A stretch of 64,000 bases of DNA. Source: Luscinia megarhynchos. Taxonomy: Eukaryota; Chordata; Aves; Passeriformes; Turdidae. The DNA is taken from contig CM067592.1 in assembly GCA_034336665.1 (NCBI GenBank), positions 50,113,783 to 50,177,782 on the forward strand, given 5' to 3'. Positions 11,290 through 58,599 of the stretch are shown here, one piece after another. The notes beneath the pieces are model-generated. The model was not told the DNA's origin, made no database searches, and saw only the letters and a program-made list of their open reading frames with translations. The translations under genes and the position numbers were made by a program. Each line of letters starts with the position of its first letter. The stretch's first letter is position 1.

Positions 11290-11295
11290 AATAAA
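11290..11295 (+). terminator. Candidate poly(A) signal after the first CpG island
   Basis: AATAAA followed at once by a GT-rich tract (11306-11472), the classic arrangement of hexamer plus downstream element. Together with the CpG island ending about 180 bases earlier, it could end a short unspliced transcript of roughly 600 bases. No convincing protein is encoded in that interval. Confidence 0.3.
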
Positions 11296-11305
11296 CCCGG
11301 ATAGT

Positions 11306-11472
11306 GGGTTGGTTTTTTTTTGTTTTGTTTTTTTTGGCAGGAGGAGGTTGGGTTTTTGGGTTTTGTTGCTTTTTGGGGATTGTTTGGTTTTGTTGTTTGT
11401 TTGCTTGCTTGTTTGTTTGGGATTTTAGGAGGGTTTTTGTTGTGTTTTTTGTTTGTTCGTTTGTCTGTTTTT
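11306..11472 (+). repeat. GT-rich low-complexity tract
   Basis: About 165 bases made almost entirely of T and G on the plus strand, with many TTTG/GTTT units and G runs (GGGTTTTTGGG, TTTTTGGGG). It is simple-sequence DNA with almost no C or A. The hydrophobic frame that reads through it is a composition artefact. Confidence 0.85.
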
Positions 11473-14901: not shown

Positions 14902-14998
14902 GTGATGTTAGTGGAGGGGTGGCATGATTTAGATAACAAAGACTATGACTGTTGGCCCCTGGAAAAGCCAGATGAGTATAACATGCTGGACTGCGGAG
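14902..14998 (+). CDS. Cyclase exon 1 of those seen: membrane-distal ectodomain
   Basis: Encodes residues 1-33, reading [18 protein letters not shown] at the start. The acceptor is strong: a run of 16 T at 14868-14883 followed by TTTCTGTCAG. The donor is GAG|GTGAGT, and the exon ends one base into a codon that exon 2 completes as glycine. It holds two cysteines (17, 31). The exon begins in phase 0, so a preceding exon should end on a whole codon. The ATG at 14905 is in frame, but starting there would give no signal peptide, so it is unlikely to be the initiator. Confidence 0.82.
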
Positions 14999-17900
14999 GT
15001 GAGTGAGTCATAAAGATGGTATCTTACTTGGGGAATGACTGAAACCCCAAAATTGAAGTATTCATAATAATAGTTTACTTATGACATATGTTATCCATGG
15101 AGAAATGTATCGAAACCAGTGACAACCTCTCTTCCTAGAGAAATAAGCAAAATAATACAACTAAAAGATACTTCAGAATAATTATTTGTCCATTATATGT
15201 TGTTGCAACAGAAAAAGTAATAACAACAGCTGTATCCATTTGCCCAGAGAGAAACTGAAAACATTTTCTTTTTCATTAGAAAACCAAATGGAACTTAATC
15301 CTAACAAAGCATAGAGACAGTGCTGCATTGTATCAAATCTGCTTGCTGAAACCTACAGTGTCAGTTCGAAAGTGTACTGTGCTTAGTAAGCAAATCCCTG
15401 AGTCTATGTCATGCTTTTCCACCTTGCTCAAAACTGTTCCATGAGTACCTAAAAAAACCCTCAGCCCTTTCTTGGGGATTTTCAAAACCTGACTAGACAC
15501 AGGCTAGAGAAATATCCTTGAGATGACCCTGCCTTGAGCAACACAGGCTTGGACTGAATGGTTTCTATACGTGCCTTCCAAATTCAACTCTTTTGTGATC
15601 TTATGGCTCTATAATAAATAAATAACTGGTGTGAAGGAACACTTTGTTTATGTTGTGAAAGGTAGGCCCAGAGGCAATAGTTCAATAGGGTTTTTAGAAA
15701 AAAACCCCAAGAAACGTCAGAAGATGATTCTAATAAAATACTCCAGGAAATATACTGCTGTGTCACACTCTTGTTCAATGTTACAGTTAAACATTCTCCA
15801 ATTAATTCTGTTGGAACAATGAAGTTCAAAGACTTTCTAGATCATTTCAACTTTTATCCCTGTATGAATTTACTATTGATTTAACATTGAAAAACACTGT
15901 TTAGCTCTACAGATGCTTTGTTTAAAGCTATTTTTGCTAAGTGCAAGGGAAACTATCATGAGTAGGTTGCTTAATTAATGTATACCCATTACAATCAGTT
16001 TTAGAATGGACTTCAAGCTCTATCCTGCCTTTCTTTTTAGGTTTTCTTTGCCATTTTATGGGCATTGCTAGAAGCAAAGCAAAACACATGTGCTGTAACT
16101 TCATTGCTGTGGAATTAACAAAAGATCTTCAAAGCTTTTATATGTGGGAGTAACTGTCATTGAAAGAAGAGTTTGGTTTACCTTTGTGAGACCTTTATAA
16201 GGAAGTAAAAAATAATTTAACTGAAATTTGTGCTGACCTTTTGTCTTCATTCTCACATGTTCTTTGAAGCTCAATGCTCTTACCTTTTAGTAGAAATCAC
16301 ACTAGCTTTTTTTTTAATCTTTGAATTATAGTTTTTCACTTAGTGTTAGCAATTAAAATGAGTTTTTACTTTTCAAGGGAGACTGGAAATAAAGAGGTTA
16401 TTTTACAATTTACCTAGTTAAATCTGAGAGTAAATTAGGGGGAAAATTGTGGTTTCAGTACAGTGCAAGTGAAGAACATCCTTGTTAAAACAAGTATGAG
16501 TAAGAGAAGAGGTCATAACCAAACAACAAGAACAAAAAAAAAAGAGACCTCTTGTAAGGCAGGTTTACCAGTCCTCTGCAGAAGGAATTTAATACTTCCT
16601 GACAAACTGAATTACATAGTTGCATTATGTAAGTATTTGATGTGGTGCAAATTAAAACCTTCATCCAACAATAGACAAAAAGGTAGGTGAGTGCAGTGGG
16701 AAGATTTTGGTGGTGTTAACTTTATGGATTTAAAACTTTTCCCAACTTTTATCTCACTTCATTATCAGGCCCAGAGGAGGGAATATGTAGTCCCAGGGGC
16801 AAGAGACATGATGGGGATAAGTCATCTTTCCCAGTTAAAATTGTGAAAATGGAAATGAGAGATGTTTGATAGCACTCCTTCCACTGTCCTCTGTTCTAGA
16901 TGCCATATGATTCTATAACATGAGAATGCATTCTTAAATATATAATTATTAGTATATATAATTTATGCTTCATGAGTTTAAGGGTTTTGACAGAATTTTG
17001 TGTGTAGTTGAGTTGTCTGTTCCTCTTCCATAATAAGATGTGTCTCAGTGAAAGCAGCTGAGAATGAAGAGCAATATTGCCTGATCAAAAGATGAAATCA
17101 AATATACCAGAACAAGCATCAACACCATATACTGGAAATGAAGTCAGTTTACGTAAGATGAGCAGGTTTTTTGTTGCGTTTCTCCAACTTCTTGATCTCT
17201 TCTTCAATTAATGTGCATTTATGTTTACCAGTACAGCCACTAAAATGCATGACTCTTTTTGGCTCATAAAAATTGGAGACTACTCAGTGGGTTACTGAGA
17301 GGGTTGTGAAGCACTGCAACAGGCTGCCCAGAGAAGCTGAGAGTGCCCCATCCCTGAAAGTGTTCAAAGCCAGGTTTGGTGGGGTTTTGAGCAACTTGGT
17401 CTATTGGAAGGTGTCCCAACCCATGGCAGGGGAGGAGGAACTGGATCATCTTTAAGGTACCTTCCAACCCAAACCACTCTATGATCCTATGAATAGATGA
17501 AAATCACTACAGAGAAAGTTTTACATTTGTATGTATCTTTTAAGTATGTATACTTTTTAAAAAGTGTAGCAAATATTCTGACCCATGACTGTGCTGTTTC
17601 TAGGACTGGAGATGACATGGGTACAAAGGCCTCCAGAAAAGGCTGTGAGTGGGGAATCCTTCAACGTCACCTATTCAGTCTTTGCTTCAGACAGTTTTTA
17701 TCAATATGCTGTCCAAAATGGAATCCTTTCCCACAGGTATTACTTCTTATTAAAATACTGTCATGATCCTATGAGGATTTTGTGTGTAAATATTCTGTGG
17801 TTTAATTGGAGCAGACCCTCTGGGGCTCTTCATTAATTCCTTCCATCTTTGAGATCTCTCATAGCTCCGTTTGCCCTGCTCTTTTTCCCTTTGCTCTCAG

Positions 17901-20900
17901 ACCAGCCATCATGGCATGTTTACCTGCTAGGTCAGAGGCAGGGCACATGACCACTGTCACAGTGCAACTCTGAACATCACTTTTGCCTTCTCTACACATT
18001 GAGTTTATAGCTGAAGTTTAAGCATGAGTCACAGGCTTTCTGTATCTTGCACTCATTTCAGTCATAAGTATGAATCAAGTGCACAACATGGATTTGACAA
18101 AGGGCTCCTCCAGCCCTGAATCCATTTAATTCAGTGGTCAACATTGCTTGATTTCTGTGGAATTAAAATCACTTCAAAAGCTTATATGTCAGCTCACACA
18201 CTGTGTTGGGGACTGTGGACATCAGCAGTAGAGAGTATGTAGGGATGCAACTCCAGATCTACAGATCTAGATCTATAAGTCCAGGGGCAATGCACTCTGA
18301 TTTTACACTTTTGTCTGTAAGTAGCAATTCTCCATCTCTTCAGAGGAACGTTTAGGACAGAGGATGGAGCCCCAGTTTCTGTGCTGTTTTGTAAGAGATG
18401 TTTAGGAACATTTTTCTCTGCATAAGTGTTCATATTGCAAAGTTCAATTTATAAAAGCTTTTATCTGGAGTTATTTTATGTCATACTGAAAGATGATCCA
18501 TAATCTATTTGCAACAGCAAAAATTTGATTTTTTTTGTCATCTATGTAATATGTTTAAAAACTACTTAAAATTTGTTTATCACCTTTCCTGAAATGTATG
18601 GCTACTAATAGTTCTGATAACTTCACCATGAAGCAAGTTTTTTCACTGCTTGGCATGAATCTGATTTTTCTAGTCCTGTCTTGGAGACCCAGTCCCTCAA
18701 ATCAGTAAGGATTTTATAAAAGTCTGCTTTTTGTGTATGCTTGAACATAGAGACAGGTGGCAAATATTTTCTAAAAAGAGGGGCAAATCTATGCTGCCAT
18801 TTTTCAAAAGGATCAAATTTGCATCTCATTTTGACTAGGTTATCTGGTTAACTAACACTAAAGGTTACAGTGGGTGACCCAGATATACCAGAGGCTGGCA
18901 AGTCTCATTATGGTCATCAGTGTAATTGGGTGAAGTTATTGAATAAAAGTTATTGAATATGATGAAGTTATTGAATAAAAAACACAGACTACCAGGTACA
19001 TTTTGAAAAGGAGCCCTAAAGAAAAGTCCATTATGGAATTAGATGCCAACTTAATTAAGTATTTTTCTAATAGTGTCTTTTTCTGTGCTAGATGAAGAAG
19101 TGCAAGTAATGTCACCCGGTCAGACTGGAAAGAGAAGTGGAGGTGGGTCTCTGCTTGCAGCAGAGAATCTGCTAGAAGTTCCTAGTGCATGGCAGTAGGC
19201 AGAGTTCCAGTTGACAACAATCTCCAGTGCTCTAGGAGCATTTCAACCAGAAGACAAATAAAAGAAAGAAATGGTTAAACAGTACTTATTTCACTGCATG
19301 TGTTTTTGCTGCCAATTTCTTTGTGCAGGATAAAGAACAAGCTGTCATGTGTTTGTTGAAACTTTTGTGGATGAGGAATGAAGTTTTGTCTCTCTCCTGC
19401 TTGCTTAGCAATGTTACTGCTGCAAAGGAATTCTGTGAAGAGCATGAATGTCCTGTCAGATGGAAAGATGCAAATGGGGACAACTGCTGTGTCTACCATG
19501 CCAACATTCATTCCTGCCCTTTGGCCTTCATGGTTAGTGTGATGGTGCTGGACGACACATCATTGTAATAAGCAGGTTCAAGTTTGTGAAGTACTTCTGT
19601 GATTACAATTAGACCAAATTTATATAGTTCACTATATATTCACAAATTATGGTTCATTAAAACCACTGTGGTAATGTCTGTCAGTTTTAGAGTTTCTTTT
19701 GTAATGGATGCTGAGGCTGCAAGGCAATATTCAGAATCTCTCATTAGTGGGACCGTTTCATCCATGTGAGTTTACCTGATTTGGACCACTGTGCAGCCAA
19801 CAGAGAAAGAAAAACAGATCACTGAATTCTAAAACAAGCAGGGCAATTTGACATTTGTAGGTATTCCAGTCTCTGTTTTGTAGAGAGACTGTGAATAATT
19901 TGCTTGATTTACTGGAGTTGAGGGGGGTGAGTGTCACTGTCTATGACTTGTAGAACTTGAGCTTCAGGACTTGTGTCCTGAGATGGAGTGATTTTTCTTC
20001 ATTGTATCAGAGCAATGAAAGGAATCCGAATACAAGATAGCGAAATTTGTTCATGGTGTGAATGCAAGATCCATTTTTAGCCTGTTGGCTTAGTCTGTCC
20101 CTCTTTGAATGACTATTTAAAAGTTCTGATCCTAAAAATATGGTTTGGAACACCTTTATTTATTTTTTTTTTCATCTGTGAGGTAAGCCTTACGCTGCAT
20201 AAGAACTTCCATGCAGCTGCCCAGTTTTCTAGTTAATCTCCCTTCTGGAAATGTGACACATTCTTCATGACCAAAGGTGATGTAACAGGAAGCCCAGCCT
20301 ACACATCTTGCAGCTCTTTCGTGTACCCTTCTGTGGGAAGGTCCAATGACTCCACAACTGCTCTAGTTTGCTTCTTGGCAGTCTGTTCTTAAGGACTTGC
20401 TTTGTTAATGATTCCCTGAAAGCCTTTGATGGCACCAGGACTTTGATTTAAAAGAGTAATCCCTGCTGGAACATGACATCAAAATTTTTGTCTAGAACCA
20501 TAGTAAAAAACTTAAATATCCCACTGGTGTGGTGACCTCTATTATTTCTATTTCCACGATTAGTTCTTCATGGAATTATGGTGTGGAAATGGCAAAAGCA
20601 TGTTCACCAACATGCATAATTTGGTTTCTTCACAATACTCAAAATATTTGAGTTTCTGCTTAAAGGAAGTCTGAGCTATTTGACTGCCACAGTTGAATCA
20701 CTGCATAAGATTGAACATACACTTCAAAGTAAGTTTTTTCCAATTGTTTGAGAAGAGTTTGGGTTTTCATTGTTTTATTTTTCCAGTGTCATGTGTTCTA
20801 AAATATATTCTTTTGGTTAATGTTCTCCATTCCATTTGACTTGGTTTATTACTTACAGTTCTTTGAAAGAAGTGTCTGAGGAACTAGCTGGAGTTAGGAG

Positions 20901-23900
20901 ACAGACTTAGTCCCTTCAAGTAAACAAAAAACTACAAGATCTTTGGACAGCCAAAATTAATCCTCTGTGTTTGCTGTTGTAGGATGTTTACATCTTAATA
21001 GCTTTATTAAGGAATGCTCTGCAAACAGGCCCTGAAGCAGTGCCTCCCTCATTAAAGAAAAAAGAAAAAAAACTGCTGTATAGAAAGTGACACTTCAGTA
21101 AAACCCCTTGAGAAAAATATTTCTGGTTCTAGCACAGCAAATCCAGAGAAGTGAACCAGCTCTATAAGATCACTCATTCCATGAGTACACTGCTGAGGCT
21201 CATGTTTTAGGAAATAACAATACACGTGGCATCTTAATTGAATATAGGAACTATTGCTTCTCTGTTGTTTTGTCACAGAACAGTGTGGCTTGTGCTGTGA
21301 CATTTTGATAGTTTTAGTTATAAAATAGAACTTGATTTGCTGTTAGAGAACATAAGTAATTTTAAGAAAGTAAAAGAGGAGGAGCTAGGACTTTCATTGT
21401 GTTTTGGTATACTGACATAACCAATATATCTACTAAAGGCTAAAGGAGGAATATGTGGTCCATGGATCCCAGATGATGGTCAGATATTTACTCACACTTT
21501 GTCTACTGCTGGCAAAATGAGCCAAAGAAACTGGACTGCCAAGGTAAAGTATATTTATTGCATATAGGATTTTACCTGATTTGCTCTTTTTGGAGCTTAC
21601 TTGCTAGTAATTTAATGCAGTTCATGAGCATGTTCCCTATTTCGTTGTATGTATGTGCTATTGTCTAAACTATGCATATGGATGAGAACTATCAATTCCT
21701 AACTGACTTGGAAGTATCACCTTTACAACTTAGTTAGTTAGTTAGTGGATTTTGAAAAAAATGCACAAATTCTTCTGAAGGATACCCCAGCTGGTCAGTT
21801 CTTCTTATAAATGCCTACTGTATGCAAGTGAGGTTTTGATGCTTGCTGTTCTTTTTTACTTGTTTCACAGGTTGTTTTAGTTCACGTGGGTGTGACTTCT
21901 CTCATTGCACACATCAGAGTTGGGAGAATCCAAGCTGCTCTGGAAGCAAAAACCACAGTCCTTCCTGCAGTAGGTATGATATAAAATGAAAGTGTGAGGT
22001 AATAATTTATTGACTGTAAATCTCAATGCTTTTATCATTCATGCAAGTTACCAAGAGTAAAAGCGACTCCTACCCCAGCCTACCTTTGAAAAGGCACAAA
22101 TGTCTTCCTGAAATTCTTCTTCACATAACACTAAAGTCTGAAAAGTGTTTGAGCTTCTAACAGTTGTATCAATCTAGAACAGTAGAAAGCCCCTCTTGTC
22201 AAATAAGTAAAGTCAAATATCATGACCAATGGCTCCAGGTACTACAAGGCTTGTCTGCAGTTCATAGGAATGTGAGAATATTCCTCCAGCTAGTGTTCTG
22301 AGGATCTGGACACTTTTCCTCTGAAGGGGTGCAGACTAGTCTTAAACATATTGGGAAGGTAGAAATCCATATTGGTTCCCTTGTTCACATTAAAAATTGC
22401 TCCCAAGGGCATCAGTCTTTCATTCTCTTTAGTATACCTGTGCGAAGGGAAGCAGAAATAACTGTAGCAATTCTCTTAGAGATGTAAAATTTTAAAAGTG
22501 GACTTGTTTAGTAAATTAAACACACAACCTGAAGAAAATTATTGGCCAAAACAAAGTGTCATCACTATACTCTTGTTAGCTGCTCTTCTGGAAGTCTGAG
22601 AATATATTTTGCAATATTATGGAAAAAAAGAAAAAGAAACATAAAGCAACTCCAGTGTGAATAGAAGTATTTATCTATAGAATTTTCTACTCATTTCAAA
22701 ACAACTGCAGCTGAATTTTCCAGGAAACTTACAATATATCAGAGAAGAAATTTTAAAAAATGCAGCTCTACCTCTGAGACAGAAAGTGACTTCTGTTATT
22801 ATCTTGGTATTATACTGGAATTAATGAGGCTGAAACAGAATTATTACTGAGCAGTGGAAATTTTTTTAGTTTTTTTATTAAAAAAATTATATAATGATAG
22901 AATAATACCTTCAGCTCACCTCTCAAGTCTGAAGTACAGCATGATATTAGTTTAGTCAGAGAGGTAAAATTGAAAGACCATTCAAGACATGGGAGAAGGA
23001 CATTTGTTATTTAAGACTTTTGTTTTAAATTACATCTAATATTGCTGATAATTTATATAAGACCTTGTAGTAAAGTAAAGGAAATACTTGAAGTGTGGGT
23101 TGCAAGATTTCTTTCTGCAGTCCCCAGTGTGTTCTGCTGCTTCTGCTGCTGAGAAAGGGTCCCTGGCTTCTGGGGATCACAAGTGCTGTATTAATACAAA
23201 GAATGCAAAAGAAAATACTGGCCTTGAAGAACTTTGAGGTTCAGAAAAAAAGCATGGATAATGAGAAACACAATAGTGATGAAGTGATTTATATACAAAA
23301 CATGTCAAAGCCTCAGATGTAATTAACATTTAACCTGATCAAAGAGAACCTGTGTTACTTCAGAGCTTCATATTGTTCTTTAAGTTGCTGGGATGGTATC
23401 TCTGAATTCTTCAAAATTTATTCTCTCTGGGACTCTGAGGTTTCCCAGGTCAAGAACCACATGTTTAAATCTGAATACAATCTTGTGGATGGATGAAACT
23501 GCCTTAAATTTTTCTGATGTGTGTTTTGTTTTCTAATCAGTCTGTGGAGATGGCTTTTGTGAGGAAGAAGAAGGCTGCTCTATCTGTCCAGCAGACTGTG
23601 GGGAATGCCCTCTTTCTCTTGATGTTAGGATAGCAATTGCCTTACCAATATGTTTAGTCTGCACTGGCTTTATTTTGACAGTCATTGTAAGTACCTGTTC
23701 TCTACTATTTTATTTCCTTTCTCTTCCATGATTTTATTAGAGTGGAGCTCTCCCTTAGTAGAGGGAGTGATTTTCTTCTGCCTCCAGCAACTGTGTGCTA
23801 TGGAAAAGAGCAGAAAGAAGGGAAACAACTTTTAAATCTTCCTTACGAGGGAAGGCACATTGTACTAGGGATTTTCATCCTGTAAGTGAGAAGACTGAGA

Positions 23901-35900: not shown

Positions 35901-38900
35901 GTAACAAATCTCTGAAAACACAAAGTAGTAACAACTAGAAGCACCATTGCAATCCTTTGTTTTTGAGATACTGGGATTTCTGTCATAGAATGGGGAAGAA
36001 TAAGAAATAATGAAAAGAAGAAATCACTGATTCAATTAGCTGTTATTGCATTATGATTTTTCTTCATTTTTATTCTGCAGTTATGCCATAATTTTACTAG
36101 AAATTGCCACAAGGAGTGACCCTCTGGCAGTAAGTAAAGATGAACTATCTATAGAAGTTGCATGAAAACTTTGATTCTGTTTCTACTGAAGACACAAACC
36201 AAACTTTGAGTTACTGCATCTTAGAGTTACTTTTTGAGCATATATTTCCCTCATGATTTTATGGGTGCCAGTTCAGTTCCCATGGAACTTGCAGTCAGGG
36301 TTTCCATGTAGATCTACCAGTTTTGCCTTTCACAGCTTTGAAGGAGAGCATGTGATAAACATAGTGTAGCTCCAAAACTTCCTTTCGATTAGTTTTGTGA
36401 GGCTTAATGACTAGGTGGATGCAGGGAGAATGTATGTATTAATATCTTCTTTTTTCTCTTGCTTCTTCCTTTTCCTGTCATTTACAGGCCCTTTTTGTGG
36501 AATCTTGCAGTAATAAGAATAACCTAGAAAAGCAAATTAGCTGCTCTCCATAAGGAAAATATCTGTTTTGAATATGTCTTTTGTTCACTGCTAAATAGCA
36601 AACACAAAAAGAATGCGCCTTGAAATTACAAACAGATGGTCTGGATATGTAACCACATTCTCTCTGAAATAATTTGCTTAACAAGATTGTAACAATAAAG
36701 ACTTGATACTACTATTTTTTCAGTTCTGACAATTTATGATAATAGACTAATACAGTCCTTGTGTTCTTTTAAAAGTTTCCCAATATTTTGTCAGGTATTC
36801 ATTTGTTTCAAAAGTTGTTTATGTCATGTAAACATTGAGATTAAAGCCTGCCAGCCTTGAAAAAACTTTTAGACAAGGTGACCCATTTTAGACTGGGTTA
36901 TATTTTTTTTATCCTTTCTTCTCCCTTGTGCTCTTACAAAAAAAAAGCTGACTTAGAGGTGATAGGGAAGATGTTATAAAAGTGATGTTGATAATAATAA
37001 TATATTTTCAGTGGCTGTCATGAGAAACATAACGCTTGTATAAAACATTGTTTAATCCCCTTTTCTCTAGAAAAATGATTTGCATTCAGCTGAATATTCT
37101 TGGTGCCCACCTTTGGCAGAATTAATTTCAGGAAAGGCTGGGAATTCTTGCCCATGTCCCACAGATTATATAGAGGTGAGTAAAATACAATATTGTGTAC
37201 AAAAATCATTTATTGAACTGAATTTACAATACATCATAGAAGTTTTATGGCAACATTACCTTTGATAAATATAAATAACCTGGAAATCAAGAAGTACATC
37301 TCAAACAAGGCAAAATTATAATACTTAACATCCTTAATAAAAAACCTCTCATACTGGCAATGAAAGATTCAGTTGTCCCCTCCTATTGCTGGTGTAATAG
37401 ATTATGTTCTTAATATTCAATCATTGATTTTTGTGCAATTTTGTTTTTATTATAAAGTGTTGAATTCCATACATATTTTATGTTAGTAATATCTAGCTTC
37501 CTGACAGAGGGTTTTCACATAATGAAGTCTGTCTCAGGCAAATTACGAGTTTGGTTTGTTTCTTATGCAACAAGCCTTTCTCTTCAATAGCCTCAATAAA
37601 GTACACTCCCTCCCAGTTTAATTAAATCAGAACAAGATGGAGTCATCCTCATTTCAGTTTAAGCACAGTATAATTTACCCTTGCTGGTCTGTAGAAACGT
37701 AAATGTAAAAAAAATTCTCCTTAGCAGCCCTGTTTTTTAATCTGACCTTAACATTCTTAAGGGGTACTTCAGCTCTTAATCTTTTGTGAAATTTATGTGA
37801 AGACAAGTCCTCTGAAACCAGTAGGTGACTCCAACAGCATAACACTCCCATACAGCACAAGAGCTGAAGGAGTGTTCAGCAGAAGGAACGTGTATGTATG
37901 TCTTACTCATGCTTTCTTACTGCAGCATTTTCAGAACCAATATCCTTCATTTAGCAAAAACCTGTAGAACTCCAGAGGCTTCAGTATGTCTCTGACACTT
38001 TAGCAGGTAGAGCTTCACAGCCAGTTGGCACCAAGAGAACAGAAGTTTTAACTTAAAATACTGCTTGTGCTTGGAATAATAAAAGGCTGTTTACTTTGCT
38101 CACTGTCTTTCTCTTCTGCAGTTAATTGAAAGGTGCAGAAGAAATAATCCACCCCAAAGGCCTACATTTGAACAAGTCAAGAAAATGTTGCACAAGATGA
38201 ATCCTGTTAGCCCTGTTGACATGATGATGACTCTGGTAAATTTAGCTTTTTAATCCAACCCGATCTGCTAGCTTTCAATAACTTTCACCTCTATCCTTCA
38301 GGGTAGTTTTTTTTAATCTTATACCTCTTGTTTGGTGAAAAAATCCACTACTATTTGTTCAGTTCTGTTAGGCTGACTGTAACTGCAGTTCAGCTTGAAA
38401 CCCAGCTTTCCTTCTCATTCAGTTTTTTAACTTTCTCAACTACTTTTGGGCTGAACATTTTTTTTGTCTGTCAAATGTTGTTTGCAAACTATATTCCCCC
38501 TTTCCTGTGGCTCAGTGGTCTTATAGTACCAGGGATATAGAATACCTGCATGCTACAAATAGCATGTTAATAAGTAATTTTGAGCAGTATATCTCAAGCT
38601 CATCAGCAGAGAAGATTCCTGGCTCCACAGACTATTGTCTCACACAGAGGAGGGATGCAAATAGCAAAGCATAGACTAGCATAGTAAGATTGTTTATGAA
38701 AGAGCATTGTAAGTTTTTGGTAAAAGATTGAGACCTTGTTTTGTTAAGATTTTGATCTGTGTCTGTAGGTTGCTCTCTGCATTGGATTTGGGCCCTAAAG
38801 TTTGCATGAAATTTGAAAATACTGAGATTGCCTTCTGCTTTCTTGTGTGCAAGCAACAACCTCAAGTCTAGAATCATAAAATTACCTAAGGAGAAATCTG

Positions 38901-41900
38901 ATCTTTGGATTTTGTAAAAAAGTGTTAGTGTCTTAGACTTGTGCCTTTTTTTATTTCTGAATGTTTTCAAGGCAGAATCATTCAAATACTTAAATCTTAT
39001 CCAACTAGCTATTTGTTTCAGTAAAAAGATGAATTTTTGGAAAATTTTAGAAAATTCTCTGTTATTTAGATGGAGAAATATAACAAACATCTGGAGATAC
39101 TTGTTGCTGAGAGAACCCAGGACTTAATGCATGAAAAACAGAAGACTGATCGTCTGTTGTATAGTAAGTTATAAAGAAAAAAATACTGGATATTCTTCTC
39201 AACAATAATTTTATTTCAGCTGTCTGACTACAAACAAGAACCCTTTGATAAGTGATTATTAATAGGTAATGTTTATCTAGCAAAGAATGGTTATACGTTT
39301 TTCTTGAAAAGCTGGAAAGATATTTAGCTACTTTCTGTATTTCCCCCTAGAGATCAGTATGCTCATCTGGGAGCTGTGGCCCAAAATCCATAGTGCTTTG
39401 ACTTTGCATAGGTATGGCAGGCCTTTTACATACTTATAAATGTTGTGGAATTGTAGTTGGTTGCTTTTGTTGGCAGTGTATGTTCCAAAATTCAGTAAGA
39501 AAAAAAGGCATAAAGAGATGGAAATAGCATATAAGACAGGAAAAAACAAAGGGATGTGGAAGTAAAAAATAGGAGGAAAAAGATGATTAAAAAAAAAAAA
39601 AATACAGGGAAGTGATAGTAAACAAACCTAACACAAGTAGATAGCAGTAGCAAAGAGCTGACAAAGAAGGAATTAGTAAAATCCTAGATCACACCATTAG
39701 AATCTAACCTTATTTTTCTTGCAATGTATAGCTACTGGCTTGTTTGGTCTAAAAGTTATGGAACATGTGAAAAATCTGGATGTGTTATCGGTGAGATTTA
39801 TGGTAAATTCTCACATTATAGAAAAGCAGATTTTGACGCCAAAGTGTATTTTTACCTTCATAATATTTTGCATTTGTGAACAATTTTTGTGCCTTTAAAC
39901 AAACATATTGTGTTCAATGTGTTCTTTTATCCTGTAAAAAGATTACAATGCTCTACTTTCTACAACAGGTATGTTGCCGAAACAAGTAGCAGATGATCTC
40001 AGGCAGGGAAAACCTGCACAAGCTCAGAGTTACTCAAGTGCCACCATCTTCTTCAGGTAAATAAAAATGAAAGATAGGACTTGAACTGTCTCCTACAGAA
40101 GAAACTTCTAGGCTCCTAGTGGAGGTGAAGCTCCTGAGTACAGAATTTCTATCTAAACTGCCACCTATTGTAACAGGTAGCTCTCTTAAAGAGTGTCTTC
40201 CAAAATTCTCACACCTCCCTATTTCTCATTATAATTACTTAATAAAAAATGACATCACTCTGGTGTTCCAACAAACAGTAGCACATCACTTTAAGTTTGT
40301 CACACATGCATGAATGTATGTTTCATAAGATAGGTCTAAGTAAAGAATCCACCTTTTAGCCTGTGTAAAGAAAATTTGTCTATCCTTAGAGTCCACCTGG
40401 GTTTACAGTTGTAATTCTTTATATATGCAGGAAGCAACATATAAATGGCATGACTTCACTTTTCATAAATGAACAGATATCAAGTTCTCTTTTTTTCATT
40501 TATACCTATAGAAGACTGCTTACAGGTTAAAGTCTACCTGTAAAAGTGCTTTACTGCATTGCGAAGCAAAAAGACTTAGGTCAGTCTGTCCTTTCAAATG
40601 GAAGGACTCTTTTGTAAATTTAAATAAATTAAGACAAAACTATCCAATACGAATATTAGCAAAATAATTATTGAAAAGAGAAGACTGATGTAATTGCATT
40701 GAGAAATTTTTTACAGTGTGTTTGAGATTACTAATCAGCAATGATTAGGACAGTGGTTTATTATACTCTTTCTGTTGTGTTTTAACAGTGACATTGTTGG
40801 CTTCACTGAGCTGTCCAGCAGCAGCACACCATACCAAGTAGTAGATCTCCTGAACAAGCTTTATACCACTTTTGATGAAATCATAGATAACTATGATGTC
40901 TATAAGGTGGAGACAATAGGAGATGCCTGTAAGTTCCTTGAGCTGTGGACAGTGGTGGAACTGGGCCACCAAGACTGAAACTCTCTGATGACAAGAAAGA
41001 ACAGCTGAAGGAGATTTGGAAAGTTTTTTACCGCTGGGAAAACAAAAAAAAACAATTAGGAGATGAGTCCTACCAGAGCCCTAGTGCTTTAGGAACATTT
41101 TCCTGCATACCTTTAATCATTTGTATGATTGATAAGTGTTGTGAATGGGACAAATTATTTGAGTAAAATACCACTGATTTTAAGTCTTGGCAGCAGATTA
41201 ATCCCAATTGGAAACTTCACAGGAACACAACTAAAAAATTTACCTTCCACATGGGATCATAGATGCCATACCCTGATCTTTATTATCTGTCTTTTTTGCA
41301 AAGACCATAACAACATTCTTTCTTCTAAGACACTGTTGGGGCTTGACTTTCTCTTTCATTGAGTTTGTAGGAAAATGGCTTTATATTTGCTACCATGGCA
41401 ATCTTCTGAGGATAGACGGTGATTAAAGTTTAGTTCCATAAAACCTAAGGAAATCTAACAGGGCTTTTGGGTGAGACAGACAAAATTCCTATATGACATA
41501 TGGGGGAATAAAAGCCCACTTTTTTTTTTTTCCTGTGGAGCTATTGAACGCATTCTTGAGCACAAAATTCCTGAACAAATGCCCCCCAAAGATCCCTAAA
41601 AGTCTAGTTTCTTGCCCTACATAGTAACAGAATTGAAGAATTATAGAATGCCCTGAGCTGGAAAAGATCCACAAGGATCACAGAATCCAACTCCTGGCCC
41701 TGCACAGGACCATCCTCAAGACTCACACCATGGGCCTGAGAACATTGTCCAAAAACTTCTTGAGCTGTGTCTGTCTTGGTGCTGTGACCACTTCCCTGGG
41801 GAGCCTGTTTCAGTATCTGACCACCCTCTGGGTGAAAAACCTTCTCATGATGCCCAACCTAAACCTCCCCTGACACAACTTCAGGCCATTGCCCCGGGTC

Positions 41901-44900
41901 CTGTCCCTGTCCCCACAGAGCAAGGATCAGTGCCTGCCCCTCCTGCTCCCTCACAAGAAGCTGTGACTGCAGTGAGGTCTCCCCTCAGTCTCCTCCAGGC
42001 TGAGCAGACCAAGTGCCCTCAGCCACTGCTCACACGGCTTCCCCTCCAGACCCTTCACACCCTCATGGCCTCCTCTGGACACTCTCTGACAGCTCAGTGC
42101 CTTTTTGTGCTGTGGCACCCAGAGCTGCCCCAGCACTGGAGGTGAGGCTGCCCCAGCTCAGAGCAGAGCAGGACAATCCCCTCCCTTGCCCAGCTGTGAT
42201 GCTGTGCCTGATGCTCCCCAGGGCACTCTTGGCTCTCCTGGTGCCAGGGCACTGCTGGCTCATGGTCAACTTCAACCAGGATCCCCAGGTCCATTTCCTG
42301 CACTCATTTCTGCTTCCAGCCTCTTCTTTCCCAGGCTGTCTTTTCATCCTGGGTTGTCCCATCCCAGGAGCAGAATGTAACACTTCTCCTTAAATAGGAA
42401 GCTGGTGATCATCCAGTCCTCAAATTTCTCAAGGTCTCTTAGCAGGCCCTTTCTGCTTGTGAGGAATTTAGTAGCATCAGCAGACTTAGTATCCCTTCCA
42501 GCCCTGTGTCCAAGCCATTTATGAAGCTGTTGAAGAGCACAGGGCTGAGGATGGAGCCCTGTGGAACCCCACCAGTGACAGGTCACAGTCTGGTGTCACG
42601 CCATTCACTGCAACCCTTTGTGCCTGAGCCCTGAGCCAGCTGCTCACCCGTCCCATGATGTGTTTATCTAGCTCTGAGCTGGACAGTTTGTCCAGAAGGA
42701 TCCTGGGAGAGGCAGTATCAAAGGCCTTACTGAAATCCAAGAGGATTACGTCAACTGCCTTCCCTTGATCACCAGGGAGATCTTACAATGACTTCACCTG
42801 TTCTTTGAGTACTGTGGGATGAATCCCATCACATACTATAGATTTACAGGGATCAAATAAGAGCAGCAAATTCCACATAAATTCAGGGTTTAGTGGCAGC
42901 TTATCATTCTCACAGTCATGGTTGTCCAGGTCTAGGACCCCAAGAACCCATCAGCAGTTTTTAAAGCATAGTGCAGGAAGCTTAGGACAATGCCTAGTGG
43001 GAGCCATTGCCCAATGACAAATATTACCAAATATCTGCCCAATAACAAAAGGTACTGAACAGTCTGTCCCACTTCAGGCATTCTCAGTGGAGGGGAGGAT
43101 GAAGCAAGAAATGATTAGAGGGAGTAAATCTTATGTAAAAATAAGAATGAAATACAACATTTTTCTTATGTAAGGTAATTCCATACTTGAGCCATTGCCC
43201 TAGCCTTCTTTTGTTTCTGGCTTTCTTTGCTCAGCAGGCACAACTGTGCCTTGGGATATGAAGGAATAGGACTTATTTGTTTCTTTATTTCCTTTAATTT
43301 TTTTTATTGTAGGCAGCATACTTTAGTGAATCTATGTGTAATGTCAAAGGTTAACACAGTTGCATTGTTGTGTTAAGATATGGTGGTGTCGGGAGTACCC
43401 AAGGAGAATGGGATCCTTCATGCTGGTGAGATTGCAAGCATGGCTTTAGACCTTCTGGATGTCTGCAAGACTTTTAAGATCCCTCACAAGCCCAGTACCC
43501 TCCTAAAGATAAGAGCAGGAATACATTCAGGTATGTTGAGATGGCTAAAAAAGTCTTCCTCTGGCCTTGCAAATGCCTCTGTAGTGGCCATTTCCTCTCC
43601 ATTAAAAATGATATGCAGTGGAACAAACATAGAGGTCATCCCAACAGAACAATTTATTGGATACATGAGATATTGGTACCCAGTTTTGAATACAACATTG
43701 GAAACATCCCACAGCCCCCGTGCCTTTGCTGATGTTAGAACTGCCATTCTGTATCCCTTACTTTTCCCTGTCAGCTGTTCTCAAAACAGTGGGTTGTTTC
43801 TTGACATTCTGATCTAGCCTTTACTCTCAGACTCTTAGATCCCTGATTTAATCTGATGTATGATTGCAATTCTTTCTTGATAGACAGAGTTGGGCACGTC
43901 CTGTGCAGCCCAACTAACTAATTAGCATATGTTGTCTTAACAAAAAATCATATATTCTACATCTTGAATCACTTGTAAGAGAGATTTGTAACCCATGTAA
44001 AGACAATACTGACACTCAGACTTTATCTGGTTAACAAATTAGATTTAAGATAGGGTGGGAAGCAGCCACAAGGTGCATAACTGATTATGTGATTTAAAAA
44101 CAAAAAATGCCTTGTTTTCTATTTCTTAACAGGAGCAGTTGTAGCTGGAGTTGTTGGAACCAAAATGCCACGGTACTGTTTATTTGGAGATACTGTGAAC
44201 ACAGCGTCCAGGATGGAATCTACCAGTGAAGGTAATAAGGAGCAAACTGCAGGTGGGATTTTAATCATCCCTGAATTAGTTCTTTTAAAATGTTGGGATG
44301 AGTCTTGAGACCTGACCTATTCAAATCATTCTGAATCTAGTAAATAGGTTCTTGATTTCTGAGTCCAGTCTGCCTAGGGACAAATTATTTGCGTGATATT
44401 CTGTACAACCACTTTTGTAACCAGACCCCCTTATTTCTCAAGTCTCAGAAAGGGATTTTTGTGGCTTTGAAGTTCTCTACAGCAAAAAAAGGGTAGGTAT
44501 AAAACAAAATGAGAGACAAGTGGTTATGTTCACTATTTCTATTGGTTCCTGGCACCCAGGTGGATTTATGGTAAAAATATTTTAATTACTCCTCTTTTAT
44601 TGCTGATAATTTTCTCTAATGGAGAGCATAAGAAACAGTAGGACACCATGGGAGCTGTGTCTGTGTTTAAGCAGTATAGAAACTGATGTATGTGTCCTCT
44701 AGAAAACAGTTTAAACAGAAATGTTGTGGAGGTATTCTCACCACTTCTTCCTAAGAGATAACAGAGCTCCAAGTTTACTTAGCAAGCTTCATCTTTAGCC
44801 AGTATGAACATTTGGAATGCCAGATTCTGAAATACTTTAGCTGATCTAGAAGAACAGAAAGGAAAAAAAAAAAAGACTGAGTGATTCAACGTCACAGAAC

Positions 44901-47122
44901 AGTGATATCTTGTTTCTTTTCCTTCATGAAACGAAGCTGAGTCGTTTTATGGCTCATATTGCAATGCATTATAAATTAAATAGGCACACACAAAATTCTT
45001 CAGGTTTGATCCGTGGTAAAAAACAATGCTTTCAACGTCTATCATGATCCACTAGAAACAAGGCAGAAAGGCAGGGGAATGGTCCTAAATGATGGATTTG
45101 AAATTTTTGAAAGGATTTGAGAATCGCAAGCATCCATTCCTTCTCACCATTTTTATTTTTCCAAAGCAAATGCTAACCTGGATGGAACAGCTATAACTTC
45201 ATTTTCTTTCTGTCAGTCTCCCAAATAACTCCTTTCATGCTCCTTGTGTCATCTTTTCTGAACTCCTTTAAAACTAATACCTCCAAAATGTGCTTCCATC
45301 ATTCATAAGTTATCTTTTGTTCTGTATGCCAGTCTCTTTCTCAGATGGTGCATCAACCCTATAGACTTTGAGGTGAAGAAGAACATTTATCTTTCAAGCC
45401 TTTATTTTCTCTCCCTCTTTTTTGGCTACATACATCTGAGGACCTCAAATTACTTTACCAAGTTTTAACTCTAAGATGATTGCTTTAAAATAAATTGATT
45501 ACTAGCAATGTGCATTTAAAAATGCTGTCACCAGGAATCGGAGTGCTAGTGTCTTTTTATCAAGCGAGATGACAAGTTGAAATATAATGTATCTACTGGA
45601 AAGGATATTCCTGAGATATGTATCTACATATGTTGAAACTACAGGCAGTGTTTAAACAAATAAAAGTGGACATTATATAACTGTCCTTTTCTAATTTAAC
45701 AAAAATCAGTTAGACAGTCTTAGCCAGTCCTGCTATCATCTGGGATGTTTTTTAAACAAAGAAGCGTAATGATTGGCTCTGTGTCACAGAACATTACAGG
45801 TGAAAAAACCTAGTAAATTTTTTAAAATTTTGGTGAATATAATTTCTTCCCACTGTCTTAATTTACAGGTTTCATTCTGGAGTCTGAGCAAGGCTGGCTA
45901 TTTCTTTAATGTTTAGACTTTGCTGAAAACTAAATGTGCTGAGAAAGCACTGGCTCTTTATTGACTTGGAGGTAGAACTGTGTATAGTTTTCTTCACCAG
46001 ATGAAAAGGATACTCATCAGTAGCACAGATAGACAGCTGCAGAGGTTGCAAAAATATTAGATGCATAAAGTGAAAAGTAGTGTTTGTTGACAGACCCATA
46101 TTTGTCCTGAGATGCTCTCACAAATAGGCCAGGATACTGGAGTTTGTGTGCAAACATTTTGAATAACAAATAACAAAGAAGGAAAATAAAGACTTGAAAA
46201 AAATACCCAAGGGGGAGTTTATTAATGAACTTGAAATTTTTGACACATTATGAGGGATGGATCTCTCTTATATGTATGAATTGTTTGCTAATATGATATT
46301 TCTCTGTCTTTCCAGCTCTTAAAATACAGTGCAGTTCAAGTGCATACCAGCTGTTGGAGCAGATTGGAGAGTATGTGTTAGTATACCGTGGGAATTTACA
46401 AGTCAAGGTGTGTATGCAACATTTATACTCAGCTTTTCAGAGAGAAGAGTGTGAAAATACTCTGGAGTCCCTGAGTTTTAACCCATGCAGTCCCCTATAT
46501 CTTTTAGTCCTCTGTATCTCACAGTGCTCTGGTTAGACTAATTCCCATACTTGAAGAGAGCGTGTTCAGATTTTAAGCCAGGACTAATTCCATGGACTTG
46601 TTGATGGGACAAACCTGGTAGGTCAGAGATGAAGGACTCAGTCAAGCCTGGAAGTCTTCCATGGCACATTCACTGTCACAACTGCTTGAAATCAAAAAAA
46701 GGTCCTTCAGAGACATCACAAATCATCATGAGTTCCACAAGAGAATTATCATATTTGCAGATCCAGTTTTGGATGGGACTTCAAAGAATTGTTTTTAATT
46801 GATATTCTGCTATTATCTTTTATGGAAAAGTTTTATGCCTCATTTTTTCTCTATGTAAAGTGGCTGAAATGCACATGTTTCTCCTTTTGGGACTTGTTTT
46901 GAGTTGTAATAACAAAGCTATTTCATAAATGACAGATAGTATTATAACCCTGTGACTAATATTCTTCCTTAGGGGAAAGGAGACATGGTCACATACTGGC
47001 TTGAAGGTAAAAAAGCCTCTGTCACCCAGAAGGCAGTCACCAGCACTCCTGGGACTCCTCAAGATGCCAACAGAGTTTCATATAGTCCCGTACTAGGTGT
47101 TCTTCCCGGTGATCCTCTCTGA
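14902..47122 (+). CDS. Orphan membrane receptor guanylate cyclase, 22 exons seen, N-terminus not found
   Basis: The spliced frame encodes 833 residues and ends at a TGA at 47120-47122. Residue numbers in all exon entries count from the first base of the exon at 14902. Order: cysteine-rich ectodomain (1 to about 216), transmembrane helix (about 218-238), juxtamembrane stretch (239-309), kinase-homology domain (about 303-550), signalling-helix linker (about 556-604), class III guanylate cyclase domain (about 610-795) and tail (796-833). By family it should convert GTP to cGMP at the cytoplasmic face of a membrane in response to a ligand. All 21 introns are GT-AG, every junction keeps phase, and no exon has a stop or frameshift, so the gene looks intact rather than decayed. 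The ectodomain has none of the natriuretic-receptor ligand-binding fold I would expect, and no ligand can be named. The start codon and signal peptide lie upstream and were not recognised. Identity as a receptor guanylate cyclase is very secure; orthology is not established. Confidence 0.93.
15470..15605 (+). mobile_element. CR1 LINE 3'-end fragment in first intron
   Basis: GGGGATTTTCAAAACCTGACTAGACACAGG, the GATGACCCTGCCTTGAGCA block, TTGGACTGAATGGTTTCTA and a final TTTTGTGATC follow the order of avian CR1 3' ends. It is 5'-truncated, as most CR1 copies are, and moderately diverged. Confidence 0.75.
17268..17492 (+). mobile_element. CR1 LINE 3'-end fragment upstream of exon 2
   Basis: It contains GCAACAGGCTGCCCAGAGAAG, GTGTTCAAAGCCAGGTT, the GGCAGGGGAGGAGGAACTGG block and the terminal GTACCTTCCAACCCAAACCA followed by CTATGATCCTATGA, the diagnostic CR1 tail. 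It lies about 110 bases before the exon 2 acceptor, so it forms most of the intron end without disrupting the splice site. Confidence 0.9.
17604..17736 (+). CDS. Cyclase exon 2: ectodomain beta-rich segment
   Basis: Encodes residues 33-77. It contains [14 protein letters not shown], then a strand-like stretch [13 protein letters not shown] with an N-glycosylation sequon at Asn53. It has no cysteines. The acceptor is TTTCTAG and the donor CACAG|GTATTA. It starts with two bases that complete exon 1's last codon and ends in phase 2. The strand-like pattern suggests a beta-sandwich module, but I cannot assign a named domain. Confidence 0.87.
18931..18980 (+). repeat. Small local duplication
   Basis: TGAAGTTATTGAATAAAA occurs twice (18931-18948 and 18963-18980), with a partial third copy between them. 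It is intronic. Confidence 0.8.
19409..19532 (+). CDS. Cyclase exon 3: cysteine-rich ectodomain segment
   Basis: Encodes residues 77-118. It opens with a sequon at Asn78 (NVT) and holds five cysteines: 86, 91, the adjacent pair 103-104, and 113, in [11 protein letters not shown] and [13 protein letters not shown]. The acceptor is TTGCTTAG and the donor ATG|GTTAGT. It ends on a whole codon, in phase with exon 4. The spacing implies a small disulfide-bonded module. No known extracellular domain was recognised. Confidence 0.87.
21439..21543 (+). CDS. Cyclase exon 4: ectodomain segment with GPWIPDDG motif
   Basis: Encodes residues 119-153, starting [19 protein letters not shown], with one cysteine (124) and a sequon at Asn149 (NWT). 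Two AG acceptors lie close together. The one just before 21439 gives phase 0, matching exon 3 and avoiding a stop. The alternative seven bases later shifts frame and soon stops. The donor is AAG|GTAAAG. The exon is a whole number of codons (35). Confidence 0.84.
21728..21747 (+). repeat. TTAG microsatellite
   Basis: About four and a half copies of the tetramer TTAG/TAGT in the intron between exons 4 and 5. Short and unremarkable. Confidence 0.7.
21871..21973 (+). CDS. Cyclase exon 5: ectodomain beta-strand segment
   Basis: Encodes residues 154-188. The pattern [22 protein letters not shown], spanning the exon 4/5 junction, resembles the last strands of an extracellular beta-sandwich, ending in an IAHIR turn. 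The acceptor is TTTCACAG. Two donors are possible: TAG|GTATGA (exon end 21973) matches the phase of exon 6, whereas the GT at 21970 would not. The exon ends one base into a valine codon. Confidence 0.85.
23541..23686 (+). CDS. Cyclase exon 6: juxtamembrane Cys module and transmembrane helix
   Basis: Encodes residues 188-236. Six cysteines at 189, 194, 200, 203, 207 and 210 sit in [20 protein letters not shown], a compact motif seen in varied extracellular proteins. It lies directly outside the membrane. After LSLDVR come about 20 hydrophobic residues (I218 to F238, running into exon 7), the only membrane span in the product. The acceptor is TTCTAATCAG and the donor ATT|GTAAGT. The exon ends on a whole codon. 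Confidence 0.93.
26269..26341 (+). CDS. Cyclase exon 7: start of cytoplasmic region
   Basis: Encodes residues 237-261: the inner edge of the membrane helix (WF), a basic stop-transfer stretch (QYQKQK), then [11 protein letters not shown]. This W...I.DF pattern follows the membrane helix in receptor guanylate cyclases. The acceptor is TTTTGTAG and the donor CAAG|GTTAGT. It ends one base into an aspartate codon completed by exon 8. Confidence 0.9.
28552..28699 (+). CDS. Cyclase exon 8: juxtamembrane linker into kinase-homology domain
   Basis: Encodes residues 261-310. Most is a low-complexity linker rich in Ser, Ala, Thr and Pro (about 264-296); it ends [12 protein letters not shown], leading into the first strand of the kinase-homology domain. 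The exon was placed by phase: it must take one base from exon 7 and leave two for exon 9, and the acceptor CCCATTTAG and donor AGATA|GTAAGT do exactly that. The 5' boundary is less certain than the 3' one because the linker is not a conserved sequence. Confidence 0.82.
30117..30203 (+). CDS. Cyclase exon 9: kinase-homology domain, ATP-site lysine
   Basis: Encodes residues 310-339. It carries [10 protein letters not shown] with the strand-3 lysine (K318) retained, and a following helix with Glu334 as the likely helix-C glutamate. No glycine-rich loop is visible in the preceding exon, as is common in the kinase-homology domains of receptor cyclases. The acceptor is GTTTCAG and the donor GAG|GTAAGA. 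Confidence 0.93.
30475..30618 (+). CDS. Cyclase exon 10: kinase-homology domain, hinge
   Basis: Encodes residues 339-387. It contains [15 protein letters not shown] and the hinge motif [13 protein letters not shown], the counterpart of TEYCPRGSLQD in natriuretic-peptide receptor cyclases. It ends with NWGFR, the helix D to E region. The acceptor is GATTTTCACAG and the donor TTCAG|GTAAAA. It is separated from exon 9 by an intron of only 271 bases. Confidence 0.95.
30632..30649 (+). repeat. GGGA microsatellite
   Basis: Four copies of GGAG/GGGA start 14 bases downstream of the exon 10 donor. G-rich runs just inside an intron can act as splicing enhancers; whether this one does is unknown. Confidence 0.7.
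31329..31450 (+). CDS. Cyclase exon 11: degenerate kinase catalytic loop
   Basis: Encodes residues 387-428. It contains [19 protein letters not shown] followed by RLKSNNC. The HRDLKxxN catalytic loop of active kinases reads HGRLKSNN here (408-415): the proton-accepting aspartate is replaced by Arg410, while Asn415 is kept. This is the usual state of the receptor-cyclase pseudokinase. The acceptor is GACTTTCAG and the donor GCAG|GTAAAG. Confidence 0.95.
33099..33234 (+). CDS. Cyclase exon 12: kinase-homology domain, DYG and APE motifs
   Basis: Encodes residues 428-473. It has DYG (428-430) in place of DFG, as in other receptor cyclases, then a Ser/Gln-rich activation-loop region. TAPEKH carries the APE motif at 454-456, followed by SDVYS. 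The acceptor is CCATTTTAG and the donor TACAG|GTAGCT, which is weaker than most in this gene. Confidence 0.94.
36081..36129 (+). CDS. Cyclase exon 13: kinase-homology domain helix F
   Basis: A 49-base exon encoding residues 473-489, [17 protein letters not shown], the counterpart of the SFGIILQEI helix in natriuretic receptors. The acceptor is TTATTCTGCAG and the donor GCA|GTAAGT. It lies 2.85 kb from exon 12 and ends on a whole codon. Confidence 0.93.
37071..37175 (+). CDS. Cyclase exon 14: kinase-homology domain C-lobe
   Basis: Encodes residues 490-524, including [20 protein letters not shown] and ending TDYIE, which runs directly into LIERC of exon 15. The acceptor is TTTTCTCTAG and the donor GAG|GTGAGT. 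It is a whole number of codons (35) with phase 0 at both ends, so skipping it would not break the frame. Confidence 0.92.
38122..38235 (+). CDS. Cyclase exon 15: end of kinase-homology domain
   Basis: Encodes residues 525-562. [20 protein letters not shown] matches the final helices of kinase folds (subdomain XI, with the conserved R.P.F pattern). [15 protein letters not shown] then starts the linker helix. The acceptor is TCTTCTGCAG and the donor CTG|GTAAAT. It is in phase 0 at both ends (38 codons). Confidence 0.95.
39070..39163 (+). CDS. Cyclase exon 16: signalling-helix coiled-coil linker
   Basis: Encodes residues 563-594: [20 protein letters not shown] then [12 protein letters not shown]. 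This is the coiled-coil dimerisation linker between the kinase-homology and cyclase domains, with the family hallmark (L.E.LV.ERT..L..EK...D.LL). The acceptor is TTATTTAG and the donor TATA|GTAAGT. The upstream polypyrimidine tract is weak. Confidence 0.95.
39590..39602 (+). repeat. Poly-A run
   Basis: A homopolymer run of A in the intron between exons 16 and 17. No adjoining retroposed sequence was recognised. Confidence 0.7.
39969..40056 (+). CDS. Cyclase exon 17: entry to the cyclase domain
   Basis: Encodes residues 594-623. [15 protein letters not shown] is the conserved hinge (LP..VA..L..G) before the cyclase fold, and SATIFFS starts its first strand. The acceptor is TCTACAACAG and the donor TTCAG|GTAAAT. 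Confidence 0.96.
40789..40928 (+). CDS. Cyclase exon 18: metal site and guanine-recognition glutamate
   Basis: Encodes residues 623-670. [10 protein letters not shown] carries the first metal-binding aspartate (D624). [10 protein letters not shown] carries the guanine-selecting glutamate (E664) and the second metal aspartate (D668). All are in the state expected for an active guanylyl cyclase. The acceptor is TTTTAACAG and the donor GCCT|GTAAGT; the tyrosine codon after GDA is split and completed 2.4 kb downstream. Confidence 0.97.
41635..42785 (-). mobile_element. CR1 LINE copy, antisense in cyclase intron 18
   Basis: Read on the minus strand this is a CR1 copy of about 1.15 kb. It holds the end of its reverse-transcriptase frame (ending near 42100, with frames such as 42519-42740 starting [20 protein letters not shown]), followed by a 3' UTR and the usual end motifs at 41640-41700. 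The frame is broken by stops and is 5'-truncated, so it is inactive. It sits in the 2.4 kb intron between exons 18 and 19 and explains that intron's locally high GC content. Confidence 0.92.
43378..43530 (+). CDS. Cyclase exon 19: cyclase domain core
   Basis: Encodes residues 670-721: [20 protein letters not shown], a helix, then [10 protein letters not shown]. The segment MVVSGVP matches MVVSGLP of known receptor cyclases. The acceptor TTGTGTTAAG has an unusually poor pyrimidine tract, but it is the only AG giving the right frame and a complete GDAY motif. The donor is TCAG|GTATGT. Confidence 0.93.
44133..44231 (+). CDS. Cyclase exon 20: catalytic residues
   Basis: Encodes residues 721-754. 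[20 protein letters not shown] contains the guanine-binding cysteine (C736). VNTASRMES carries the transition-state asparagine and arginine (N743, R747). All match catalytically active receptor guanylyl cyclases. The acceptor is ATTTCTTAACAG and the donor GAAG|GTAATA. Confidence 0.97.
46316..46407 (+). CDS. Cyclase exon 21: cyclase domain, late strands
   Basis: Encodes residues 754-784: [20 protein letters not shown], then [11 protein letters not shown], matching the EALKIH and ELRGDVEMKGKG region of family members. The acceptor is CTGTCTTTCCAG and the donor AAG|GTGTGT. It ends on a whole codon. Confidence 0.95.
46973..47122 (+). CDS. Cyclase exon 22: end of domain, C-terminal tail and stop
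   Basis: Encodes residues 785-833 and the TGA stop. [13 protein letters not shown] closes the cyclase fold (compare GKGKVRTYWLLG). It is followed by a tail of about 36 residues rich in Ser, Thr and Pro, ending VLPGDPL, which is longer than the bare end of the catalytic domain and has no recognised motif. The acceptor is ATTCTTCCTTAG. Confidence 0.95.
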   Translation, partial: GKGDMVTYWLEGKKASVTQKAVTSTPGTPQDANRVSYSPVLGVLPGDPL

Positions 47123-58480: not shown

Positions 58481-58599
58481 ACAGACAGCAGTCCTGCCCA
58501 GAGTCTTCTCCCAAGTTAGGCACCAGTGGAGAGCAAGGCTTCAGGAGATGCTCTGCGGCAGCTGGATTTCATCCTGAAGGTGGCCCTTAGGGATAAAGC

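Follow-up and report, generated by a model that had tools for sequence, protein, structure and literature searches.

A receptor guanylate cyclase of Luscinia megarhynchos that probably represents a separate, ancient subfamily with an ectodomain of its own

The 64,000-nucleotide stretch of the Luscinia megarhynchos genome analysed here (the window, 50.11-50.18 Mb of contig C36) carries an intact gene for a single-pass receptor guanylate cyclase. Very probably, this receptor belongs to a separate subfamily that was present in the common ancestor of chordates and molluscs, whose ectodomain and cytoplasmic half have remained together since, and which would operate as an orphan homodimer. The phylogeny of the cytoplasmic half, the distribution of the ectodomain and the lack of a detectable natriuretic ligand domain all bear on this assignment.

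The gene was rebuilt from a reading of positions 13000-48900. The 22 exons given in a preliminary description of the window (14902-47122, + strand) were confirmed: an AG acceptor precedes all 22, a GT donor follows all but the last, the phases match, and 833 codons without an internal stop lead to a TGA at 47120-47122. That description had called the receptor full from membrane to tail. The frame is indeed intact, but a first coding exon had been missed. This exon, at 13869-13922, starts with ATG, is followed by a GT donor and joins position 14902 in phase 0. It was located by tblastn with the first 24 residues of the Passer orthologue (90% identity over 21 residues, E 1e-7) and encodes MGAVKSPAVELRSLLSLL, a hydrophobic segment that is kept in other birds and is a putative signal peptide, as judged by its hydrophobicity. 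The full product therefore has 851 residues from 23 coding exons. Its ectodomain is 96% identical to that of Passer and 73-76% identical to those of four cartilaginous fishes, and is recognisable in amphioxus and bivalves, which excludes chance as the origin of the reading. From the N-terminus, the parts follow one another as putative signal peptide, ectodomain, six-cysteine stalk, membrane helix, kinase-homology domain lacking the HRD motif, signalling helix and cyclase domain, and are distributed over the exons as follows.

13869..13922, + strand: first coding exon, start codon and putative signal peptide MGAVKSPAVELRSLLSLL (tblastn with the Passer N-terminus; ATG, GT donor, phase 0)
14902..14998, + strand: exon, N-terminus of the ectodomain (WHDLDN..., C35, C49)
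17604..17736, + strand: exon, ectodomain, first sequon
19409..19532, + strand: exon, ectodomain, second sequon (its Asn codon); H125, H129; C104, C109, C121, C122, C131
21439..21543, + strand: exon, ectodomain, CGPWIPDDG...FTHT (C142, H155), third sequon
21871..21973, + strand: exon, ectodomain, TSLIAHI (H185), last strands
23541..23686, + strand: exon, stalk with six cysteines (C207-C228), then the transmembrane helix (about residues 232-255, hydropathy peak at 236-254)
26269..26341, + strand: exon, juxtamembrane segment with WDESWI motif
28552..28699, + strand: exon, Ser/Thr-rich juxtamembrane segment
30117..30203, + strand: exon, kinase homology with VAIKK (Pfam)
30475..30618, + strand: exon, kinase homology (Pfam)
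31329..31450, + strand: exon, kinase homology, with HGRLKSNNC at the HRD place of active kinases
33099..33234, + strand: exon, kinase homology (Pfam)
36081..36129, + strand: exon, kinase homology (Pfam)
37071..37175, + strand: exon, kinase homology (Pfam)
38122..38235, + strand: exon, end of kinase homology (Pfam)
39070..39163, + strand: exon, signalling helix, a coiled-coil linker (HNOBA match)
39969..40056, + strand: exon, cyclase start (Pfam)
40789..40928, + strand: exon, cyclase, SDIVGFT (the first two bases of the Ser codon lie in the preceding exon) and VETIGDA
43378..43530, + strand: exon, cyclase
44133..44231, + strand: exon, cyclase, RYCLFGDT and NTASRMES
46316..46407, + strand: exon, cyclase, C-terminal part (Pfam)
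46973..47122, + strand: last exon, end of cyclase, C-terminal tail and TGA (Pfam)

That the cytoplasmic half is of the receptor-cyclase family, as had been recognised from the letters alone, is borne out by Pfam, which finds the cyclase domain (PF00211, E 5.3e-67) and, between it and the membrane, a kinase-like domain (PF07714, residues 309-547 of the 833-residue model). The usual catalytic motifs of the cyclase, which we take to bind metal and GTP, are intact, and so are Glu and Cys positions that we presume to be GTP-specific. In the kinase-homology domain, HGRLKSNNC replaces HRD; other receptor cyclases likewise deviate from HRD in this part. The closest solved structures by sequence are those of NPR1 (E 5e-147) and GC-C (E 6e-101), and the NPR1 chains match in the cytoplasmic half. 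By analogy with these relatives, the protein would be an active cyclase that produces cyclic GMP (cGMP).

A tree of the kinase-homology and cyclase domains (550 columns, 22 rows, unrooted) places this half outside the known receptors sampled. It holds 16 family rows (nine vertebrate, two amphioxus and five bivalve-type) and six rows of known receptors, namely NPR1 from the PDB, two bird NPR-type loci, GC-C from the PDB and from the bird, and one bird locus that we take to be retinal-type (L022); Narcine, the algal cyclase and the bird loci L019 and L020 are omitted. The 16 family rows are separated from the six others with support of 100/100, so that the cyclase of the window falls neither in the NPR clade nor in the GC-C and retinal-type clades. 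A tree constrained to unite the nine vertebrate members with the three NPR rows is 51 log units worse and is rejected (p-AU 0.0008). A tree of the ectodomain alone gives the order bivalves, amphioxus, vertebrates, and since this order is repeated there, the ectodomain and the cytoplasmic half have apparently travelled together. In a third tree, of the cyclase domain only (26 rows, rooted on the algal cyclase), known receptors group at 89/94 and vertebrate with amphioxus members at 80/97, with long branches. Another bird cyclase locus, L020 (G000:C24:2816500-2826000), joins neither the NPR nor the GC-C/retinal group in this last tree, on a branch of 2.22.

Several points weigh against so clean a separation. 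Known receptors are represented by six rows only, some of them partial and joined from bird exons, two being about one-third filled. The program warns that long branches meet in the tree of the two domains, and its 100/100 split is unrooted; its rows comprise chordate and bivalve-type cyclases, to the exclusion of insect and nematode ones. In the cyclase-only tree the family is not recovered as one clade, because the bivalve members are unresolved at the root. Moreover, the genome-wide search for the natriuretic ligand domain (ANF_receptor, PF01094), which served as a control, missed four of the eight other receptor-cyclase loci (C503, C24:2.82 Mb, C3:24.5 Mb and C1050).

The family is widely distributed. 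Scored on residues 1-300, a first search gave 415 matches at E <= 1e-3, of which the best 120 comprise sauropsids (birds, crocodilians, turtles, lizards, snakes and tuatara), frogs, a caecilian, lungfish, coelacanth, ray-finned fishes, sharks, a ray and a chimaera, as well as the platypus and three marsupials (opossum, koala and agile gracile opossum). Zonotrichia, Motacilla and Passer are the closest among the matches listed, at 95% over residues 1-300. The preliminary view of a class kept in birds and lost in mammals was thus too narrow: the family occurs in jawed vertebrates generally, in amphioxus and in bivalves, and the platypus and marsupial members mean that it was not lost in all mammals. 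Placental mammals do not appear among the best 120 of the 415, though marsupials (75-76% identity) and fishes (65-70%) do; since 295 further matches lie beyond these, the pattern points to absence from placentals without proving it.

A second search, with the ectodomain alone, returned 35 short or partial vertebrate proteins and fragments. The third, which admitted longer proteins only (E <= 0.1), gave 13 matches, from six vertebrates, two amphioxus and five bivalve-type proteins, four of the latter from named bivalves. The amphioxus proteins are 50-53% identical over 99-100% of the queried ectodomain (E 1e-79 or better) and the bivalve-type proteins 42-44% (E about 1e-60); in an alignment of 12 rows, the window ectodomain is 50-55% identical to the two amphioxus and 40-45% identical to four bivalve-type proteins. 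Because Pfam assigns the same pair of domains, kinase-like and cyclase, to the scallop and amphioxus members as well, the whole receptor is older than the split between chordates and molluscs. Vertebrates have a second paralogue (P0122, P0125, P0131 and P0156, from lungfish, pufferfish, newt and electric ray; 99/99 in the ectodomain tree). It was not found in the bird genome (1.09 Gb searched), where ectodomain matches lie at the window locus alone (55 listed; 54 of 160 candidates scored).

Some relatives have peculiarities of their own. Predicted proteins of the tammar wallaby (P0126) and a newt (P0121) have the ectodomain and lack the cyclase half, through gene-model error, alternative splicing or decay. 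The ectodomains of the sea turtles P0089, P0090, P0091 and P0093 are 72-73% identical to that of the window, as against 84% for the pond turtle P0032; two of these sea-turtle members adjoin P0032 on short branches in the whole-protein tree, and their divergence is likely a local oddity of gene model or sequence. Four of the five bivalve-type proteins (P0164, P0166, P0167 and P0168) have in common a long C-terminal tail, in which a motif resembling TPVE...RKIS.IS precedes (T)S(N)DSG; this feature was seen in none of the vertebrate members read.

The ectodomain contains 14 cysteines and three N-glycosylation sequons (NVT, NVT and NWT), as first counted, and is followed by a single strong hydrophobic helix (hydropathy peaks at residues 236-254, and the model of the relative P0122 has a helix at 237-271). 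Pfam recognised no ectodomain family in the window protein or in 12 diverse ectodomains, apart from one stray match in one member at E 0.23. The lone match of a PDB sequence search with the ectodomain was a cytochrome b6/f subunit (E 0.23), and a PDB profile search built on the 12 ectodomains gave nothing up to E 10. Structure prediction, which had been proposed as a check, yielded an immunoglobulin (Ig)-like sandwich in two AlphaFold (AF2) models, with a predicted confidence (pLDDT) of about 95 over most of the sandwich. Foldseek and VIA searches with the two models returned generic sandwiches only and no significant structural match; no ANF_receptor-type chain was among the 50 rows listed per structure search, which by itself excludes nothing. 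As part of the overall explanation, and with the confidence given to it as a whole, the ectodomain would be a cysteine-rich Ig-like sandwich of about 180 residues on a six-cysteine stalk.

Conservation was assessed by aligning 66 proteins that we chose from the 168 returned; they range from birds to bivalves, and the numbering follows lungfish. The eight core cysteines are invariant (66/66; 65/65 for C147), as are the six stalk cysteines (64/64), and these residues presumably pair in disulphides. H130, H134 and H190 (H125, H129 and H185 in the window protein) are present in 66/66, H160 (H155) in 65/65 of the sequences with a residue there, and the histidine of the N-terminal WH in 98%. The same four histidines are found in 12/12 rows of the alignment that includes the window protein, which shares the pattern of eight plus six cysteines and four histidines with a subfamily extending from clams to marsupials. 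The model puts H130, N132 and H134 on strand 128-137, where they would share one face if the strand is regular; H190 falls on strand 183-193 and H160 in a less confident stretch. These two strands would be neighbours in an Ig-like sandwich, making a metal or ligand pocket plausible, as read from the strand assignments of the model.

The names carried by the family point elsewhere. Among the best 120 of the 415 matches, most are called 'atrial natriuretic peptide receptor 1/2(-like)', ANPRA/ANPRB or simply 'guanylate cyclase', and a few are hypothetical or unnamed. These names, together with the NPR1 chains as nearest solved structures (47% identity in the cytoplasmic half), would fit a divergent natriuretic peptide receptor of the NPR1/NPR2 type, which we consider highly improbable. 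NPR1 and NPR2 (GC-A and GC-B) do share the single membrane pass, kinase-homology domain, signalling helix and cyclase domain. They differ in the ectodomain, since here about 180 residues and a stalk form a predicted Ig-like sandwich, and they lie on the other side of the tree, whereas the vertebrate members group with amphioxus and bivalve proteins of the same ectodomain. Pfam found no ANF_receptor domain in the window protein, the amphioxus and scallop members or the 12 ectodomains, and the precomputed domains of the 120 listed relatives include PF01094 in none. Nor was such a domain found upstream, where the added exon encodes the putative signal peptide, and the original placement of the ectodomain outside the natriuretic-receptor class therefore holds. 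A six-frame search of the bird genome gave 66 ANF_receptor matches, none of them in the window, and put the domain near four of the eight other receptor-cyclase loci (C819, C28, C36:8.84 Mb and C2:84.40 Mb); the genome holds separate NPR-type loci with the domain close by. Proteins with this ectodomain that bear the natriuretic name, from birds to bivalves, belong to the same family as the window receptor, and the name is misleading; because the natriuretic ligand domain was not found, a natriuretic peptide is unlikely as the ligand. The guanylin receptor GUCY2C (GC-C) likewise has the same cytoplasmic architecture (39% identity) and lies on the opposite side of the tree. The retinal and olfactory cyclases (GC-E, GC-F and GC-D) also share this architecture; they too lie on the opposite side, represented by the single bird locus L022.

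Decay or loss of function of this bird's copy is less probable still than a natriuretic receptor. Nothing was found in its favour, and all 23 exons are intact with consensus splice dinucleotides, identity to Passer is 94-96% and the end branches are short. Another possibility, which we regard as unlikely, would be a receptor that is independent of ligand or controlled from inside, as the retinal cyclases are by GCAP proteins, with the ectodomain serving folding, dimerisation or adhesion. A review describes the retinal cyclase ROS-GC as an orphan for which no extracellular ligand has been identified (PMC9849996). The single retinal-type row branches elsewhere, however, and the ectodomain retains 42-44% identity from shark to bivalve with 14 cysteines and four histidines fixed, a degree of conservation that argues for a specific binding role. 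To our knowledge, this receptor branch has no known ligand, which would also suit an internally controlled receptor.

A possible but doubtful refinement is that the ectodomain is a metal-dependent sensor, in which H125, H129, H155 and H185 would bind Zn, Cu or Fe, and cGMP production would be controlled by the metal, by redox state or by a ligand that the metal holds. It is consistent with the invariance of the four histidines from birds to bivalves in both alignments, with the strands on which three of them sit (two on 128-137, one on 183-193), and with the presence of PmoD, LPMO and neelaredoxin, whose sandwiches bind copper or iron, among the weak top fold matches; many of these weak matches, however, are sandwiches not known to bind copper or iron. 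More tentative still is the combined proposal of an undescribed, bilaterian-old class of receptor cyclase, in which an invariant metal-binding histidine pocket in an Ig-like ectodomain would sense metal, redox or a small molecule, and which would have been kept in marsupials and monotremes and lost toward placentals. If true, such a pocket would be an input to cGMP signalling different in kind from that of the natriuretic receptors with their peptide-binding fold.

For the separate orphan subfamily that we favour, the most likely mechanism is drawn from its cytoplasmic relatives. An extracellular ligand or condition would act on the ectodomain of a homodimer, and the change would be relayed through the stalk and membrane helix to the signalling helix. 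The helices would turn, allowing the two cyclase domains to align and convert GTP to cGMP.

Elsewhere in the window, TMEM215 lies downstream of the cyclase gene and convergent to it, as an intact open reading frame (ORF) at 57051-57773 on the - strand, inside an open frame of 57051-58568 (240 residues from ATG; Pfam E 7e-118). NDUFB6, a synteny landmark, matched contig C18 and not C36, and no conclusion on synteny was therefore drawn. About 3 kb ahead of the start-codon exon, a CpG-rich stretch (10501-11500; GC up to 0.66, CpG observed/expected 0.6-0.9), in which three ORFs gave no Pfam match, is possibly a promoter with a non-coding first exon. The stretches 41640-42850, 61560-62260 and about 17290-17490 resemble pieces of CR1 retrotransposons, and Pfam matched none of three ORFs in the first two. 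Pfam on ten ORFs of the window besides the receptor and Rfam on the window at gathering scores returned no matches.

The receptor had also been put forward as a candidate for an undescribed system. We found no description of the family in the open-licence literature, and the available portions of a 2019 study of natriuretic receptors (PMC6878697), a 2006 study of the cyclase family (PMC1435932) and three further articles (PMC6170504, PMC9849996 and PMC3863949) contain no mention or description of it; its members have nevertheless often been annotated, with a name that misleads. A review credits mammals with seven membrane guanylate cyclases (PMC9849996). In our opinion, the family was overlooked because it is named after natriuretic receptors and because the placental model mammals seem to lack it. 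In a dipteran study (PMC3863949), two orphan cyclase clades had no vertebrate orthologue when judged against five human receptors; with the family seemingly missing from placentals, these clades may belong to it and deserve re-examination.

To conclude, our work describes what is very probably a further ancient branch of the receptor cyclases, strongly conserved from clams to marsupials and equipped with a different ectodomain. Finding its trigger could reveal a new hormone or sensor that placental mammals have given up.
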